From Siminovitchia fordii DSM 16014 = CIP 108821 (GTDB lineage: Bacteria; Bacillota; Bacilli; Bacillales; Bacillaceae_C): 64,000 nt of DNA. The notes under the pieces are model-generated. The model had not been told where the DNA came from. It saw only the letters and a list, made by a program, of their open reading frames with translations, and ran no database searches. Position numbers and translations under genes: made by a program. The stretch is from contig NZ_KB894696.1 of the NCBI RefSeq assembly GCF_000374565.1, positions 1 through 64,000 of the forward strand. Direction: 5' to 3'. Below, in pieces: positions 18,910 to 64,000 of this stretch (its first letter is position 1; the number at the start of each line of letters is the position of its first letter).

Positions 18910-19725
18910 TTAATTAGGAATAAAAGGTTCGCATATATTGCTTTTTTTAAAATAGCTTAAATTCCTATTTTCAAGATACTTCATGGGCAAACTTTCTCGT
19001 GTTTTTGATACCAGCGACAGGTCGATACTTTCAATGATCACTTTTTCTTGATGTTCTGTTTTATTTAAGTAGTCACCATACGGAGATATAATGGCACTTT
19101 CTCCAAAATAAACGGATTGTTCTTCCAATCCAACTTTATTAACCACAGCTAAAAAGACTTGATTTTCTAATGCTCGTGCCCTCATCATAATTTTATGATA
19201 GATTTGGTAGGGTACCACATGTGCCGATAGGACGACAATCATTTCAGCGCCATTTAGGGCATATATTCTCGACATCTCGGGAAATCCAGCATCGAATGTC
19301 ATCATTAAAGACATTTTTCCGTTACCAATAGTGAACAAGGGTCCATCATTGCCAGCAGTGAAAATATCCTTTTCCCACTCAAATAAATGAACTTTTCGGT
19401 AAACCCCTTGTATCTTTCCATCTTTTTGAATAAAGACCGCCGAATTAAAATATTGGTTCTCCTTTTTTTCCGGAAAACCAATCACTACTCCTATTTCGTT
19501 TTCCTGTGCTGCTTGACACAATTGTTTCAAACTTGGCCCATCCAGCGGTTCAGCCAACTCACGGGCTTTTTCTTTTAGAGCATATCCCGTTAAAAACATT
19601 TCAGGGAATACGATCAAATCGACGGCTTTTTGCTTGCATTCCCTCATGGTAGTTACAGCCGCCTTAATGTTTTCCTGCTTGTTCATGAAGGTACTTTTCA
19701 ATTGTGCCAAAGCGATTGTTAGCAA
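18910..19725 (-). CDS. Nitrilase-superfamily protein lacking the catalytic cysteine
   Basis: The 271-residue protein has the carbon-nitrogen hydrolase fold; members cleave amides or nitriles using a Glu-Lys-Cys triad. Glu42 (VFPEMFLTGY) and Lys111 (VYRKVHLFEWE) are present. At the nucleophile site, where ICYDxxFPE is usual, the sequence reads MMTFDAGFPEMSR: Thr143 (codon ACA) replaces Cys. Classical chemistry is therefore unlikely; it may be a binding or regulatory relic or use altered chemistry. The TTG start directly follows the TAA of the sigma-54 activator (TAATTG), with AAAGGAG 8 bp upstream, so the two are co-transcribed and coupled. Its position suggests a role tied to the amidohydrolase/symporter operon on the other strand. 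Confidence 0.8.
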   Translation of the reverse strand: MLTIALAQLKSTFMNKQENIKAAVTTMRECKQKAVDLIVFPEMFLTGYALKEKARELAEPLDGPSLKQLCQAAQENEIGVVIGFPEKKENQYFNSAVFIQKDGKIQGVYRKVHLFEWEKDIFTAGNDGPLFTIGNGKMSLMMTFDAGFPEMSRIYALNGAEMIVVLSAHVVPYQIYHKIMMRARALENQVFLAVVNKVGLEEQSVYFGESAIISPYGDYLNKTEHQEKVIIESIDLSLVSKTRESLPMKYLENRNLSYFKKSNICEPFIPN

Positions 19726-20955
19726 TTAAAGCTCTCCTTTCTCTCGTAACTCCTTTACCTTTCTGGCGATTGTAGATTGGTTTACTTGGAGTACTTCCGC
19801 GACTTTATAAGTGTTTTGGTAAATTTTATAAGCGTTTGATATTAATTCATTTTCTACTCTTTGTTTTGCTTCTTTCAAAGGCAAGAATGGCTGGGAGTAA
19901 GATTCATAGTTGGTTTTGCTAGTAGAAAAATTGGATATGCCTTCGGGCAAATCATTTAATGTAATCACTTCTTCTTCAGAAGTAATAAAAAGGCGTTCAA
20001 TAATGTTTTCCAACTCTCTTACATTGCCGGGCCAATCATATTGATAAAAGGCATTCATCACTTCTGGAGTGAATACCTTTTCCACCCCATACTTTTGACC
20101 GAATGTATTTAAAAACTGGGTGATTAAGACCTGTAAATCTTCTTTTCTTTCTGATAATGGCGGGATTTGAATGGGTACAACATTTAAACGATAGTATAGA
20201 TCCTCTCGAAATAACTTCCTTTCAACCATGTCCTCAAGATCTTGGTTAGTTGCTGCTATAATTCGAACATCTACGGGAATCGACTCAACCGAACCAATAG
20301 GTCTTATATGATTTTCCTGAATCACTTCAAGTAGCTTAGACTGAAGATGGAAAGGTACTTCTCCTATTTCGTCCAGAAAAATAGTGCCTCCTGAAACTGA
20401 TTGAAAGATCCCCGGCTTTCCATCTTTGTGGCCTCCAGTAAAACTTCCTGCTGTATATCCAAATAGTTCAGCCTCAATGAGCGATTCGGGGATGGCACTG
20501 CAATTGACTGTAGCAAATTGCTTATTCGACCGATGGCTGTATTGATGGATAAGTTTGGCTATATGGCTTTTTCCAACTCCTGTTTTTCCAAGGATAAGGA
20601 CTGTAGAATCCACGAATGATACCTTTCTGACAAGCTCCATTACGCCTTTCATTTTGGCGGACTGGAAAGAAAGCTGTTTTCCGTTATGGTGTTTTAGGCC
20701 CTCGGTCGTTCCATTAGAGGAATTTATTGTTGAGACACCCAACCATTTAACATGATCTTTTTTTATAAGAAGAAAAGGTATTTCCTCTATCCATATCACT
20801 CGAGCCGTCCCTTCCTTTAAATGTGAAAGATGCTGATCAATTTCATTATAAGGTTTACCCTTTCTTAGTTTTTTCGGGATATATTGATTAATCTTTTCCT
20901 TGTTTTCTTCTTGAAAATTTAATATAAACCATGATGTATTTTCTTGGAGAACCAC
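19726..20955 (-). CDS. Sigma-54-dependent activator of the deacetylase/symporter operon
   Basis: This is an enhancer-binding protein of 409 residues. A short N-terminal region (~1-95) without a recognised sensor domain is followed by AAA+ (~105-335): Walker A GKTGVGKS, sigma-54 contact loop GSFTGG (variant of GAFTGA), Walker B GGTIFLDEIGEV and FREDLYYRLN. A TyrR-like helix-turn-helix ends it (YKVAEVLQVNQSTIARKVKEL). GTG at 20955 is chosen because GAAAGGAGG lies 6 bp upstream; longer frames read into the intergenic palindrome. Directly divergent is a -24/-12 promoter, the almost certain target, and a 36 bp palindrome between them is a likely binding site. The nitrilase-like gene follows with no gap. 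Confidence 0.9.
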   Translation of the reverse strand: MVLQENTSWFILNFQEENKEKINQYIPKKLRKGKPYNEIDQHLSHLKEGTARVIWIEEIPFLLIKKDHVKWLGVSTINSSNGTTEGLKHHNGKQLSFQSAKMKGVMELVRKVSFVDSTVLILGKTGVGKSHIAKLIHQYSHRSNKQFATVNCSAIPESLIEAELFGYTAGSFTGGHKDGKPGIFQSVSGGTIFLDEIGEVPFHLQSKLLEVIQENHIRPIGSVESIPVDVRIIAATNQDLEDMVERKLFREDLYYRLNVVPIQIPPLSERKEDLQVLITQFLNTFGQKYGVEKVFTPEVMNAFYQYDWPGNVRELENIIERLFITSEEEVITLNDLPEGISNFSTSKTNYESYSQPFLPLKEAKQRVENELISNAYKIYQNTYKVAEVLQVNQSTIARKVKELREKGEL

Positions 20956-20972
20956 GATTTTCCTCCTTTCAA

Positions 20973-21008
20973 GAATGCAAAAATACATTATAATGTTTAT
21001 TTGCATTC
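20973..21008. promoter_or_regulatory. 36 bp palindrome, candidate enhancer site for the sigma-54 activator
   Basis: The arms GAATGCAAA and TTTGCATTC flank a central CATTATAATG; only four positions break the symmetry. Its centre is about 112 bp upstream of the -24 element and just upstream of the activator's ribosome site, so it could also give autoregulation. Confidence 0.65.
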
Positions 21009-21101
21009 AAAAACCCTTGAATTAAACAGAAATACCCTCATAAAAATGCATATTTTCATTATTGTAATTCCAAAATACCGATAAATCAATACTTTTTAAA
21101 T

Positions 21102-21117
21102 TGGCACACAATTTGCG
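21102..21117 (+). promoter_or_regulatory. Sigma-54 (-24/-12) promoter
   Basis: TGGCAC-ACAAT-TTGC matches the sigma-54 consensus, with GG and GC the required 10 bases apart. It lies 39 bp before the deacetylase ATG, which has GAGGAGG upstream. It was the only good match noticed in the window's intergenic DNA. Confidence 0.9.
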
Positions 21118-21155
21118 ATATAAAAGGAAAATCAAATAGAGGAGGAATTAAAGCA

Positions 21156-22268
21156 ATGAAAACAGCATTAATTTGGGACGAGAAGTATAGTGAACACGAT
21201 ATTGGAAAGCAGAAATATGTTCTAAGCAAAGAACTTGAGATGAATTCAGGGCTAGCTTTTGAAAACCCTTACAGATTGAATCTTGTACATGAACTATTGG
21301 AAAAAACACAACTAATAAACAAAATGGTAGCTTACAAGCCTGAATTCGCCAGGGAAGAAGATTTATTAAAGGTACACACAACCGAAATGGTTGAGAAAGT
21401 CAAAGAAGCCAGTAAAAACAAGGTAAATATAGAGGTTGGAGAAGCGGCAGTCTCCTCGCCCGGAGCCTATGAAATTGCTTTATTATCAGCGGGAGGGGCA
21501 AAAAAAGCCATCGATGTTGTATTTGAGGAGCAAGATGTTAAACAGTCATATGCTTTGATCAGGCCACCTGGACACCATGCGACAAGAACTAGCCCAATGG
21601 GATTTTGTCTATTTAATAATGTTGCTGTAGCTGTGGAGTATGCAAAGGAAAAATTTGGTATGGAAAGAGTATTGGTTCTTGATTGGGATGTGCATCACGG
21701 CAATGGAACACAGGATATTTTTTATCATGATCCGAGTGTTCTGTTCATCTCTATCCACCAATATAAAAATTACCCGTTAGAGGGAGGAGAAATAGCCGAA
21801 ACCGGCGAGAATGATGGTAAGGGATTCAATATTAATATCCCCCTTATTCCTGGTTGTGGAGATCAAGAATATATAAAGGTTATTGATCAAATTATCACAC
21901 CTGCAGTTAATGCATTCAAACCACAACTGATTATAATATCAGCCGGACAGGATGCTAATCTATATGACCCGTTATCCAGAATGATGGTTACCAGAGAAGG
22001 ATTTAGAACGATGGTGACAAAAGTAAGGGAGCTGGCAGCAGTTCACTGTGCCGACAGGTTGGTTATTATACAAGAAGGGGGATATAGCTTGCCTTATTTC
22101 CCCATTGCAACATTGGGTGTCATCGAGGGTTTATTAGATGAAAACTATCCATGGCAGGCGGACATAGAAAAACTGCTCCCATATTCCGGTTTTAAGCCGG
22201 TTATCGACCCTATTTTAGCCGAAGTTAAAAAGGCGTTCCCCGCCATATTTAAGGAGTTGAAGGTTTAG
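21156..22268 (+). CDS. Histone deacetylase-family amidohydrolase (acetylpolyamine-type)
   Basis: The 370-residue protein belongs to the arginase/deacetylase fold, zinc enzymes that remove acetyl groups from amines such as acetylpolyamines. Catalytic and metal residues are visible: His140-His141 in RPPGHHAT, Asp178 and His180 in LDWDVHHGNGTQ, Asp266 in SAGQDANLYDP and Tyr in EGGYSLPYFP. The usual SAGFDAH block is SAGQDAN here, so the substrate pocket may differ. It is first in an operon under a sigma-54 promoter and is followed without a gap by DUF3311 and SSS transporter genes. This suggests uptake of an N-acylated amine and its hydrolysis for carbon or nitrogen. The substrate is not known. 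Confidence 0.88.
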   Translation: MKTALIWDEKYSEHDIGKQKYVLSKELEMNSGLAFENPYRLNLVHELLEKTQLINKMVAYKPEFAREEDLLKVHTTEMVEKVKEASKNKVNIEVGEAAVSSPGAYEIALLSAGGAKKAIDVVFEEQDVKQSYALIRPPGHHATRTSPMGFCLFNNVAVAVEYAKEKFGMERVLVLDWDVHHGNGTQDIFYHDPSVLFISIHQYKNYPLEGGEIAETGENDGKGFNINIPLIPGCGDQEYIKVIDQIITPAVNAFKPQLIIISAGQDANLYDPLSRMMVTREGFRTMVTKVRELAAVHCADRLVIIQEGGYSLPYFPIATLGVIEGLLDENYPWQADIEKLLPYSGFKPVIDPILAEVKKAFPAIFKELKV

Positions 22269-22486
22269 TGAAGAGAGGAACTGTGACACTTATATTTTTC
22301 TGTGCTATGTGGATGATCTTAAGTACCGTTGTTTTTCCTCCGTTCTTTCAATTCTTTAACAGAGTCGATCCATGGGTGTTAGGTCTTCCGTTCGTTCAGT
22401 TTTGGATTTTGTTCGTTGTTCTGGCAGTTTGTGTCCTGCTCGCTATTTGGTACAAAGTTGAAGAGAAGAGAGGAGAACTCGAATGA
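22268..22486 (+). CDS. DUF3311 small membrane protein (YhjC-like)
   Basis: A 72-residue protein with two hydrophobic helices (about 7-25 and 40-60) and a PPFFQFFNRVDP turn, typical of DUF3311. These peptides are encoded directly before sodium:solute symporters, as yhjC before yhjB in B. subtilis, and are presumed accessory subunits. GTG overlaps the deacetylase stop by one base; the stop overlaps the next ATG (ATGA). Confidence 0.8.
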   Translation: MKRGTVTLIFFCAMWMILSTVVFPPFFQFFNRVDPWVLGLPFVQFWILFVVLAVCVLLAIWYKVEEKRGELE

Positions 22487-23976
22487 ATGCATTAATAGCA
22501 ATTGGTGTCATTATTGGGTTCTTTATTATAAATGCGGTCATCATCAAACTTGCTCATAGAAAGCAAGATTCACTTGAAGAATTCGCTGTTGGAGGCAGAT
22601 CGTTTCCATGGTATTTAAGTATGTTTGGGTTTATCGGTGCCTGGTATGTTGGAGCAATGTATACAGGCTGGTTTGCTGATTCAGCTAATCTAGGTTTGTT
22701 TGCACAATATTTGGCACTCTATTCCTTGGGTTCAATGGTTATGATGTATACTATTGTCCGTCCAGTTTGGGTTTGGGGAAAGGAATACCAACTTGAAACT
22801 AATGCCGATCTTGCAGAACTTAGATATGGAAGTAAAAAATTCGGTACTTTTATTGCTATTACAACGTTTCTATTTTGGAGCCCATGGTTAATTGTAGAAA
22901 TCAAAACCATCGGTTATCTTATATCTGCTGCAACATATGGAACAGTTCCATTTAATCTGGGACTTGTATTGGTAAGCTTGTTTGTTGTCGTGTACTGCTG
23001 GCTTGGAGGAGCACGAGCAAGTGCCGTGGGAGCGCTTGTTCAAGGAGTATTCTTTACAATTGTAGGAACGGCTCTTGTTTTATACTTGATGTTTCAAGCT
23101 TACGGTGGTATCTCGCCAATGTTTAAACAAATAGCCGAAACTGCACCTGAATTATTGGTGATTTCCGACACTGTTGGATACGGGGGATGGAGTTCTGCCA
23201 TCATCATCGGAGCACTGGGTGGGATGATGATGCCGGGGGTATTTATCCGAATGTATATGACCAAGAACGTAACAGAATCTAAAAAGGCCGTTTTAATTGT
23301 TCCTTTCATCGGAGCGATATTTACAATCTTATTATTATGGCTTGGTCTTGGTTCAGGGTTGCTTGACGGTTTTCCGGATGATGCGCAAAGCGGCGCTTTC
23401 TGGATTGCAGATCAGTTTGGGGGGCCTGCAGCTTTGGGATTAATGGGAGTTTTTGCGTTGGCTGCCAGTATGTCGACGATTAGTGCGGCAACCCTTACGG
23501 CTGCAGTCATGATAGGAAAAAATATTCTTGCGCCTTTAAACCTTTCTAGAGATCAAACATTAAAAGTTTCAAAAATCGCTACATTATTTGTAGGATTAAT
23601 TGCCATAGGGATTGCTACATTGGAAATAGGAAGATTGGTTTCTATCATTCTTTATGTCTATGATTGTATAGTTCAGGTTGCAGTGCCGATGGTACTTGGC
23701 CTTTTTTGGAGACGAGGCAATGTATACGGAGCTTTTATAGGAACATCGGCAGGCATGTTGGTTGTACTGACTGCTGGAATATTCCCGTGGCTGACGGATT
23801 GGGCCGGGAGTTGGTCAGCAGGTAGTGTTGGCCTATTGTATAATCTAATACTTTATATTGTTGTTTCTTTACTGACGAAAAAGCAAAGACATGTAGATGG
23901 CCTATTTGAGACATTGGAAAATTATCAGGCTCAAGAAGAAAAAGCAGAAGAAAAATCAAGTTTAAAGGCGCTTTAG
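22483..23976 (+). CDS. Sodium:solute symporter (SSS family, YhjB-like)
   Basis: This is a secondary transporter of 497 residues with about 13 membrane helices. Family features are the EEFAVGGRSFPWYLSMFGFIGAWY region in helix 1-2, a GGMMMPGVFIRMY segment and LAASMSTISAATLTAAV, which corresponds to the sodium-site helix. The C-terminus is hydrophilic and rich in Glu/Lys. It starts with an ATGA overlap to the DUF3311 gene and is the last gene of the sigma-54 operon. The substrate is presumably what the deacetylase processes, inferred from context. Confidence 0.88.
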   Translation: MNALIAIGVIIGFFIINAVIIKLAHRKQDSLEEFAVGGRSFPWYLSMFGFIGAWYVGAMYTGWFADSANLGLFAQYLALYSLGSMVMMYTIVRPVWVWGKEYQLETNADLAELRYGSKKFGTFIAITTFLFWSPWLIVEIKTIGYLISAATYGTVPFNLGLVLVSLFVVVYCWLGGARASAVGALVQGVFFTIVGTALVLYLMFQAYGGISPMFKQIAETAPELLVISDTVGYGGWSSAIIIGALGGMMMPGVFIRMYMTKNVTESKKAVLIVPFIGAIFTILLLWLGLGSGLLDGFPDDAQSGAFWIADQFGGPAALGLMGVFALAASMSTISAATLTAAVMIGKNILAPLNLSRDQTLKVSKIATLFVGLIAIGIATLEIGRLVSIILYVYDCIVQVAVPMVLGLFWRRGNVYGAFIGTSAGMLVVLTAGIFPWLTDWAGSWSAGSVGLLYNLILYIVVSLLTKKQRHVDGLFETLENYQAQEEKAEEKSSLKAL

Positions 23977-62712: not shown

Positions 62713-64000
62713 TTATTGGGCCTCCTCAAAATTAAGCTCGGGCGGGGGCTGCCTAAACATTTTTGTAAGGTTTAAAAGGTATATAAATCCTAACGCAAAC
62801 CAAATTCCACCTACAATAAGTGAATGACTATCCAATTTTAAAAAGAATAAGCCTGTAAGCGAAGCGCCAATTAACGGAATAATAAGATACCGAATCGTCC
62901 CCATAATGGATCTCTGATTTTTTCGGAAATAATAGTGCGCGATTACAGAAAGATTAACAAGGGTAAAAGTAAGCAGTGCACCAAAATTGATGAGAGATAC
63001 GGCTAGTGTAAGACTTAAGAAAAGTGAACAAAAAGCAATGGATCCTATAATTAATAGGTTAAATACAGGTGTACGATACTTTGGCGAAAGATACCCAAAT
63101 ATTTTGGCAGGGAGTACACCGTCACGTCCCATTGCATATAAAATACGGGATGCACTTGCCCCTGATGCAATAGCCGATCCGAAGCATGTAATGGTTCCTT
63201 CTGCAAGCATATAACTTACCAAGAAATTACCTCCGATGTACATACCAATTTCTATATAAGAAGCTTCAGGGTCATTAAAAGTTTGGTATTCCGGCCAGGC
63301 AAGCTGTAAAAAATAAGAGCCAAGAATATACAGCACCCCACCAATGATTGTAATAAGATAAATGGCTTTGGGTATAGATTTTTCTGGATTTTTCGTTTCC
63401 TCCGCCAGAGTGGTCACAGCATCAAACCCTAAAAAAGAAAAACATAAAACAGGTATGATAGACATGATTTCCGGCATATCAGAATTTGAATCAATAAACG
63501 GAAGTACAGAAAGGATTGTGCCAGCTCCTTGGCCATTTAGAAGACCCTTAATTGAAAATAGGATGAAAAGGATGAATGATCCAAACTGCAATAACAGAAC
63601 ACCTGTATTAAATTTTGCCGCTAAGGTGATCCCAAGAATATTTACGGTCGTTATGATAATGATAAAGAGAATAATCCAAATGTACATAGGAATAGAAGGA
63701 AAATACGCCCTCATAGCTATTCCCAGGAATAAAGAAGTTATCATTGGACTAAATACATAATCCAATAATATTGTCCAACCTACCATAAACCCAACATGCG
63801 GACTAAAGGATTTTTGCGTAAACGTATAAGCACCGCCTGCAGTCGGAAAGGCTTTCACCATTTGAGCATAGCTATAGGCTGTAAATAACATAACAAGCAA
63901 GGCAATCATATAAGCTGTTGAAATCATCCCATTTGTGCTCTGAACAGCTACTCCATATGTTGCAAATAAAGTTGTTGGGGCCATAAAAGCTAAACCAAAA
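62713..64000 (-). CDS. APC-family amino acid/polyamine permease, N-terminus cut by the window
   Basis: The frame stays open to the window end, so the first residues are missing. About 11 helices are present. Family features: GFMAPTTLF-like start of helix 1 (FGLAFMAPTTLFATYG), YAQMVKAFPTAGGAYTFTQ in helix 2 and FLGFDAVTTLAEETKNPEKSIP, the conserved helix 6-7 loop. It imports amino acids or amines; relatives include putrescine importers. The substrate cannot be told. Stop at 62713, followed by a terminator. Confidence 0.88.
   Translation of the reverse strand, partial: FGLAFMAPTTLFATYGVAVQSTNGMISTAYMIALLVMLFTAYSYAQMVKAFPTAGGAYTFTQKSFSPHVGFMVGWTILLDYVFSPMITSLFLGIAMRAYFPSIPMYIWIILFIIIITTVNILGITLAAKFNTGVLLLQFGSFILFILFSIKGLLNGQGAGTILSVLPFIDSNSDMPEIMSIIPVLCFSFLGFDAVTTLAEETKNPEKSIPKAIYLITIIGGVLYILGSYFLQLAWPEYQTFNDPEASYIEIGMYIGGNFLVSYMLAEGTITCFGSAIASGASASRILYAMGRDGVLPAKIFGYLSPKYRTPVFNLLIIGSIAFCSLFLSLTLAVSLINFGALLTFTLVNLSVIAHYYFRKNQRSIMGTIRYLIIPLIGASLTGLFFLKLDSHSLIVGGIWFALGFIYLLNLTKMFRQPPPELNFEEAQ

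Follow-up and report, generated by a model that had tools for sequence, protein, structure and literature searches.

A nitrilase-fold protein whose catalytic cysteine has been replaced is probably the chemical sensor of a sigma-54-dependent operon in the soil-type bacterium Siminovitchia fordii DSM 16014 (= CIP 108821). The locus occupies positions 18,910 to 23,976 of the window, the stretch of 64,000 nucleotides that we analysed (contig NZ_KB894696.1, positions 1 to 64,000). On the minus strand, a sigma-54 activator (Act) is followed with zero gap by the cysteine-free protein (T-Nit), the Act stop abutting the T-Nit start. Facing them on the plus strand are genes for an HDAC-type deacetylase, a DUF3311 protein and an SSS-family symporter, the first two overlapping by 1 nt and the last two by 4 nt. 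As the best explanation of the whole, we propose with moderate confidence, reading from sequence, that the locus is a T-Nit-gated sigma-54 operon for an N-acetylated small molecule. Open reading frame (ORF), Pfam and motif scans located all five genes with their domains, the -24/-12 promoter and a palindrome where the original prediction had placed them (Table 1).

Table 1. Features of the locus, in window coordinates (UAS, upstream activating sequence).
Feature	Position	Strand	Remarks
T-Nit, nitrilase fold, proposed sensor	18910..19725	-	271 aa; Thr143 for catalytic Cys; Glu42/Lys111/Glu118 kept
Act, sigma-54 activator (bacterial enhancer-binding protein, bEBP)	19726..20955	-	409 aa from GTG; AAA+, C-terminal helix-turn-helix (HTH)
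UAS 1 ATGCAAAAATACAT	20975..20988	.	predicted site, pattern-based
UAS 2 ATGTTTATTTGCAT	20993..21006	.	predicted site; UAS 1 and UAS 2 form the palindrome 20973-21008
UAS 3 ATGCATATTTTCAT	21046..21059	.	predicted site, pattern-based
-24/-12 promoter TTGGCACACAATTTGCG of the HDAC operon	21101..21117	+	predicted, motif scan
HDAC-type deacetylase	21156..22268	+	370 aa; Hist_deacetyl; catalytic residues present
DUF3311 small protein	22268..22486	+	72 aa; likely symporter partner
SSS-family sodium:solute symporter	22483..23976	+	497 aa; SSF domain

A nitrilase without its cysteine, coupled to an activator

T-Nit has the CN_hydrolase fold (PF00795, 203 bits in a Pfam scan), and its structure model (pLDDT 85.6) matches PDB entry 1j31 best. 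The codon at 19299-19297 places Thr143 at the position of the catalytic Cys, leaving incomplete the Glu-Lys-Cys triad by which an active nitrilase was to be recognized. The nearest folds to the model include, by their PDB titles, laboratory Cys mutants with ligand, namely PH0642 C146A with glutaramide and the C158S variant of the Medicago N-carbamoylputrescine amidohydrolase (MtCPA) with putrescine. T-Nit resembles PH0642-type nitrilases and N-carbamoylputrescine amidases in fold and in its Glu-Lys-Glu residues but has Thr or Ser in place of the nucleophilic Cys.

The gene is under strong constraint. Across three window-type loci, the ratio of nonsynonymous to synonymous divergence (dN/dS) is 0.07-0.12 for T-Nit, 0.09-0.11 for Act, 0.07-0.11 for the HDAC, 0.03-0.05 for the symporter and 0.14-0.18 for DUF3311. 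That T-Nit is a decaying gene is ruled out by a dN/dS as low as those of Act and the HDAC.

The pseudo-nitrilase gene does not count as a fifth catabolic gene of the locus. It accompanies the activator gene also where the facing operons differ, and we found 23 distinct pairs coupled in this way, from 17 genomes of Bacilli, with T-Nit directly downstream of Act. The catalytic position holds Thr (20) or Ser (3) in the coupled proteins and Cys in all 57 uncoupled ones, and the Glu, Lys and Glu are retained in every one of the 80 nitrilases counted, coupled and uncoupled. Another five of the 85 distinct rows fell outside this count by length or score, namely the uncoupled Cys rows L157 and L114, L218 (63 bits, not looked at) and the broken Thr copies L149 and L221. 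L149 (6898-7404, in the same-genus genome G028) is a shortened Thr-nitrilase remnant, 90% identical to the window T-Nit and without an adjoining activator or HDAC; it is a lost copy of a window-type locus. L221 (6714-7484, at the end of contig G477:C38) joins an activator fragment in frame to a Thr-nitrilase fragment and represents either a degraded copy or an error of assembly.

Genomes were searched with a profile built from eight Thr nitrilases (A1). The genome sets overlap, the large sets were scored by the best candidates per genome, and both this limit and the thresholds may hide distant forms; loci were read from stretches of at most 19 kb, and G000 denotes the genome of the window. Among 397 genomes of the order, 14 match at 1e-60, five of them with T-Nits in the loci read (G000, G194, G303, G307 and G365). 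At 1e-75, 10 of 398 genomes of the class match, eight with T-Nits (G000, G477, G513, G553, G563, G572, G658 and G757). The 15 genomes of the order of G563 gave five matches, all T-Nits already in the class set. Four of the 38 genomes reached through loci match at 1e-60; two carry T-Nits (Bacillus norwichensis again, and Pseudalkalibacillus, L220) and two are Cys rows (L216 and L217). The window genome was the sole match at E 1e-75 among 348 genomes of the phylum. A single-protein search of 34 family genomes led to T-Nits in G000, G024, G025, G027 and G028, and plasmid records gave six matches at 29-39% identity.

Phylogenetic analysis points to a shared history of the two partners. In trees computed without the catalytic column, all 23 T-Nits fall on one side of a branch, both in a quick tree of 80 rows (SH-aLRT 99) and in a careful tree of 77 rows from which three long rows were dropped (bootstrap/SH-aLRT 100/97). 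The 23 coupled Acts are likewise separated by one branch from seven other sigma-54 activators (SH-aLRT 99, quick tree). The aligned sequences therefore suggest, most simply, one origin of the coupled pair, an event long maintained rather than repeated 23 times. Act and T-Nit distances are correlated across 22 pairs (r = 0.92; none of 5000 permutations as high); L194 was omitted from both alignments, leaving 22 rows.

Because the loci had been found through the nitrilase, we also searched in reverse from the activators (A4). Scoring the best four candidates per genome in 398 genomes, we obtained 13 matches of 556-625 bits whose alignments begin no later than position 12; each of these full-length Acts has a T-Nit 7-62 nt downstream by match coordinates. 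Among the matches listed, the next-best activators reach at most 489 bits, and the alignments of those just below the gap begin at position 27 or beyond.

Act, its candidate sites and the operon they face

Act matches PF00158 (Sigma54_activat, 219 bits) and AAA_lid_14 (87.5 bits); its C-terminal HTH_50 match, at 25.7 bits, is slightly below the cut-off of 27. No GAF domain was found in a Pfam scan at E 0.001. The ORF spans 19726-21006 on the minus strand, but the GTG at 20955 is the likelier start, with AAAGGAGG six bases ahead, and the palindrome (18+18 nt, 89% complementary) is therefore intergenic. In the alignments, the window Act starts at 20958, one codon (Ile) ahead of this GTG. The N-terminal domain of about 77 residues is the fastest-evolving part of the protein (pN/pS 0.27-0.36, versus 0.04-0.07 for the AAA+ domain) and has no invariant residue across the 22 aligned rows. 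It was modelled, at moderate confidence, as a small beta-alpha-beta domain that by eye may resemble a (reduced) PAS fold.

Sigma-54 control, as originally predicted, is borne out by the promoter box, the divergent activator and a sigma-54 gene in the 4.5-Mb host genome. The window box has one mismatch, and with six such boxes in the window against 2.24 expected, a single one-mismatch box alone means little. A box with 10 or 11 of 11 positions lies 5' of the facing operon in all 23 coupled loci, however, whereas shuffled sequences gave a mean of 0.53 and a maximum of three loci. The 23 loci together contain 70 ATG-N8-CAT sites (shuffles: mean 3.2, maximum 8) in the interval that runs from 160 nt within the annotated activator ORF to the -24/-12 box. 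As exact pattern matches, and hence predicted sites, at least three occur in 21 of the 23 loci and two in L008 and L209. Their common layout is a doublet spaced 17-19 nt with a lone site closer to the promoter. Regions of equal size beside uncoupled activators (eight rows, among them L183, apparently a truncated version of the L209 row) contain no site in seven cases and one in L157. The doublet with the window spacing occurs once more in the genome; that search, for exact matches 18 nt start to start, is blind to other spacings such as that of the second module of the window genome (C7, 19 nt) and does not prove a single Act target.

A residue of the HTH appears to covary with the site. Within the motif QST(I/V)xK/R, five loci (the window, L150, L151, L210 and L211) have Arg as the final residue and the other 18 have Lys. 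Among half-sites, an A occupies the fourth position in 3 of 34 at the Arg loci versus 99 of 112 at the Lys loci, a few probable chance sites counted in. By these aligned sequences, the choice of Arg or Lys goes with the fourth base, and the Arg loci occupy two separate regions of the activator tree.

At L157 (5218-9657, contig C16 of the window genome), an activator whose N-terminal part is longer shares one run of genes with DUF3311, SSS and a Cys-nitrilase, and a -24/-12-like box, TTTGGCATGATACTTGCT, lies upstream. Here DUF3311 and SSS are apparently under sigma-54 control without a Thr-nitrilase.

The operons facing the coupled pairs vary, and one Cys-nitrilase lies within 7 kb of the activator in 20 of the 23 loci. 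The three window-type (Siminovitchia) loci have no Cys-nitrilase within that distance and an HDAC instead. In Aneurinibacillus thermoaerophilus (L008), Act and a Thr nitrilase diverge from an amino-acid permease, an HDAC and a second, Cys-bearing nitrilase, which scores 321 bits against N-carbamoylputrescine amidase, below the cut-off of 410. Like L008, the coupled locus L207 combines an HDAC with an AguB-like nitrilase. The window genome also has a second, paralogous pair (L152), which lies opposite a permease gene. Neighbours above their cut-offs are a gamma-aminobutyrate transaminase (L209) and an agmatinase-type enzyme (L153, TIGR01230), and L211 has an aldehyde dehydrogenase near succinate-semialdehyde dehydrogenase, below its cut-off. 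The common theme of the coupled loci is amide and amine catabolism, the neighbours' place in the controlled operons being putative. A neighbourhood survey bore out the expected co-conservation in part: the five-gene order is the same in assemblies of Siminovitchia terrae and B. norwichensis, but the window HDAC was found in only three of six same-genus genomes (100, 83 and 81% identity).

The HDAC (Hist_deacetyl, 302 bits) carries the motifs RPPGHH, DWDVH, GQDAN and EGGY, and the GHH, the Asp-His-Asp zinc ligands and the catalytic Tyr are all present; its L1 region has an insertion relative to most relatives compared. HDAC6 and bacterial HDAH come closest among PDB sequences, ahead of dimethoate and propanil hydrolases. 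In the available part of PMC11532494, the RPP and EGGY foot-pocket motifs are tied to strict or robust deacetylases of HDAC cluster 1, and cluster 1b includes small-molecule amidohydrolases; by this motif link, the window HDAC likely removes an acetyl group from a small molecule. The cluster 1b enzymes KpHdaH, RwDmhA and RsPrpH share with it the catalytic residues, EGGY and a long L1 region, and KpHdaH also RPPGHH, whereas RPA replaces RPP in DmhA and PrpH (same source, in part). Unlike them, the window HDAC adjoins a symporter and is predicted to be under sigma-54. Uptake and deacylation thus stand as the likely job of the locus, given the RPPGHH and EGGY motifs and the symporter (PMC11532494, in part). 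The acylated-amine reading of the original prediction is supported for import and deacylation of an acetylated small molecule and not for GQDAN as a clue. We rejected GQDAN as the mark of a new substrate, since no form is commoner than GQD, present in 75 of 112 HDAC-type rows (GQDNH 65, GQDPG 4, GQDAN 3, GQDPN, GQDSN and GQDPS one each), and the Asp itself is unchanged. NCBIfam gave nothing over cut-off for the window nitrilase, HDAC, DUF3311 or SSS, and we therefore claim no substrate. A link to defence was rejected, PADLOC giving zero matches for the three proteins tried (T-Nit, HDAC and SSS).

The DUF3311 protein is a likely symporter partner. All four DUF3311 matches of the window genome adjoin an SSS gene, two of them below the family cut-off, and in the Sinorhizobium RpuS regulon a DUF3311 gene occurs together with a pyruvate symporter gene (PMC9100948, in part). 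HDAC paralogs with GQDPG were seen at L145 and L146 (C9 and C13 of the window genome), L147 (G026) and L148 (G025). As read, L145, L147 and L148 adjoin genes for a branched-chain-type ATP-binding cassette transporter, an aldehyde dehydrogenase and an aminotransferase, and L146 adjoins oxidoreductase-like genes.

A proposed sensor and its rivals

Pocket residues kept, a nucleophile lost and laboratory Cys mutants with bound ligand together make a ligand-holding sensor the simplest reading of T-Nit, and the Cys-nitrilase in 20 of the 23 loci makes this sensor look like an inactivated sister of the enzyme that it would serve. In the mechanism we propose, SSS and DUF3311 would import an N-acetylated small molecule and the HDAC would deacetylate it. 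T-Nit, presumably inactive as an enzyme, would hold an amide substrate or the amine or acid product unconsumed in a pocket of Glu, Lys and Glu with Thr or Ser at the nucleophile position. Act, possibly in the form of three dimers, would occupy the three ATG-N8-CAT sites and contact RNA polymerase-sigma-54 at the -24/-12 box. The ligand on T-Nit would release or trigger Act, depending on the sign of control, through a contact probably made with Act's small, fast-evolving N-terminal domain.

Several points weigh against this proposal. The GAFTGA loop of Act is altered to GSFTGG, albeit with the F, T and next G retained; across 22 Acts, G171, F173, T174 and G175 are invariant and the second and last positions vary. 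Given one origin, the 23 loci are not independent and include near-copies (L193-L195, L150/L151, L205/L206 and L210/L211). The loci were found through the nitrilase, and the reverse search scored the best four candidates per genome. In the window-type loci, which have no Cys-nitrilase, the T-Nit ligand would have to be the substrate of an HDAC, an enzyme of a different fold. Finally, the N-terminal domain of Act might itself be the sensor.

This last point leads to an alternative in which sensing would reside in the N-terminal domain of Act itself, with T-Nit a passenger retained because of the operon's structure. Such a domain, beta-alpha-beta in the model and PAS-like by eye, sits where bEBPs usually sense, but its lack of any invariant residue, the retention of T-Nit by all 13 full-length Acts and a constraint on T-Nit equal to that on the enzymes leave us regarding this as unlikely. 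We put slightly more weight, still at the level of an unlikely outcome, on T-Nit being an active enzyme with a Thr or Ser nucleophile, such as a slow amidase or acyltransferase, that makes or removes the inducer. The Cys is replaced by Thr and Ser alone, both hydroxyl residues, and Glu, Lys and Glu are kept in 23 of 23; on the other side, Cys-to-Ser and Cys-to-Ala variants of the fold were crystallized with ligands, by their PDB titles, and the gene stands behind a regulator gene in every coupled locus.

The least probable of these alternatives, in our judgement, makes T-Nit a regulatory subunit that tunes a Cys-nitrilase in mixed oligomers. Mixed nitrilase complexes exist in sorghum (NIT4A/NIT4B; PMC5154151, in part), a Cys-nitrilase accompanies most coupled loci, and the window genome holds 13 nitrilase matches in all, the others lying outside the locus. 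However, the three Siminovitchia loci lack such a partner and T-Nit is nonetheless constrained there (dN/dS as above), its bond is to Act, and the Cys-nitrilase in L008, L205, L206, L207 and L212 belongs to a distant AguB-like branch.

If T-Nit is indeed the sensor, sigma-54 activators may receive signals through a new class of input, in which a catabolic amidase, copied and inactivated, acts as a stand-alone inducer sensor within a sensor-activator-three-site cassette re-used across Bacilli before varied amide and amine operons, including one with an HDAC instead of a nitrilase. We regard this generalization as evenly poised between true and false. With a one-residue substitution, a plain promoter with its sites and a Cys-nitrilase beside its dead relative in most loci, ligand, partner and mechanism are directly testable. 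The system, if true, would offer amide- or amine-responsive switches and a route to the substrates of HDAC and nitrilase operons.

Related systems and other genes of the window

That enzymes can turn into sensors is a long-standing idea in regulation; among sigma-54 activators, no clean case of an enzyme-derived sensor is known to us. In NifL-NifA and PspA-PspF, a bEBP is governed by a partner protein, and those partners are unrelated to pathway enzymes. AmiC of Pseudomonas aeruginosa has a fold of the periplasmic-binding-protein type. AmiC-AmiR resembles the proposed system in that an aliphatic amide operon has its regulator controlled by a distinct protein that binds small molecules, but AmiR is an ANTAR protein (PMC3795266, in part), whereas the window locus has a sigma-54 AAA+ activator with a nitrilase-fold partner. 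The norR-norVW system shares with it a divergent sigma-54 activator and three enhancer sites, which there scaffold the oligomer (PMC2941729, in part) and in the window are predicted; NorR senses by its own GAF domain, unlike Act, which is coupled to T-Nit. The literature on nitrilases, sigma-54 activators and pseudoenzymes, partly in titles and abstracts and with subscription papers poorly covered, yielded no description of such a pair, and a term look-up in the available parts of two sigma-54 regulon papers (PMC6615313 and PMC12316311) found no mention of a nitrilase.

Elsewhere in the window, a second sigma-54 activator (1145-2860, 571 aa) is uncoupled to any nitrilase. An APC permease (62713-63999) and a Cys-nitrilase (L201; G000:C12 64365-65183) lie at and past the right window edge, with no coupled activator. 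In the same genome, L156 (1899-2587, contig C5) contains three similar tandem ORFs at a spacing of about 208 nt.

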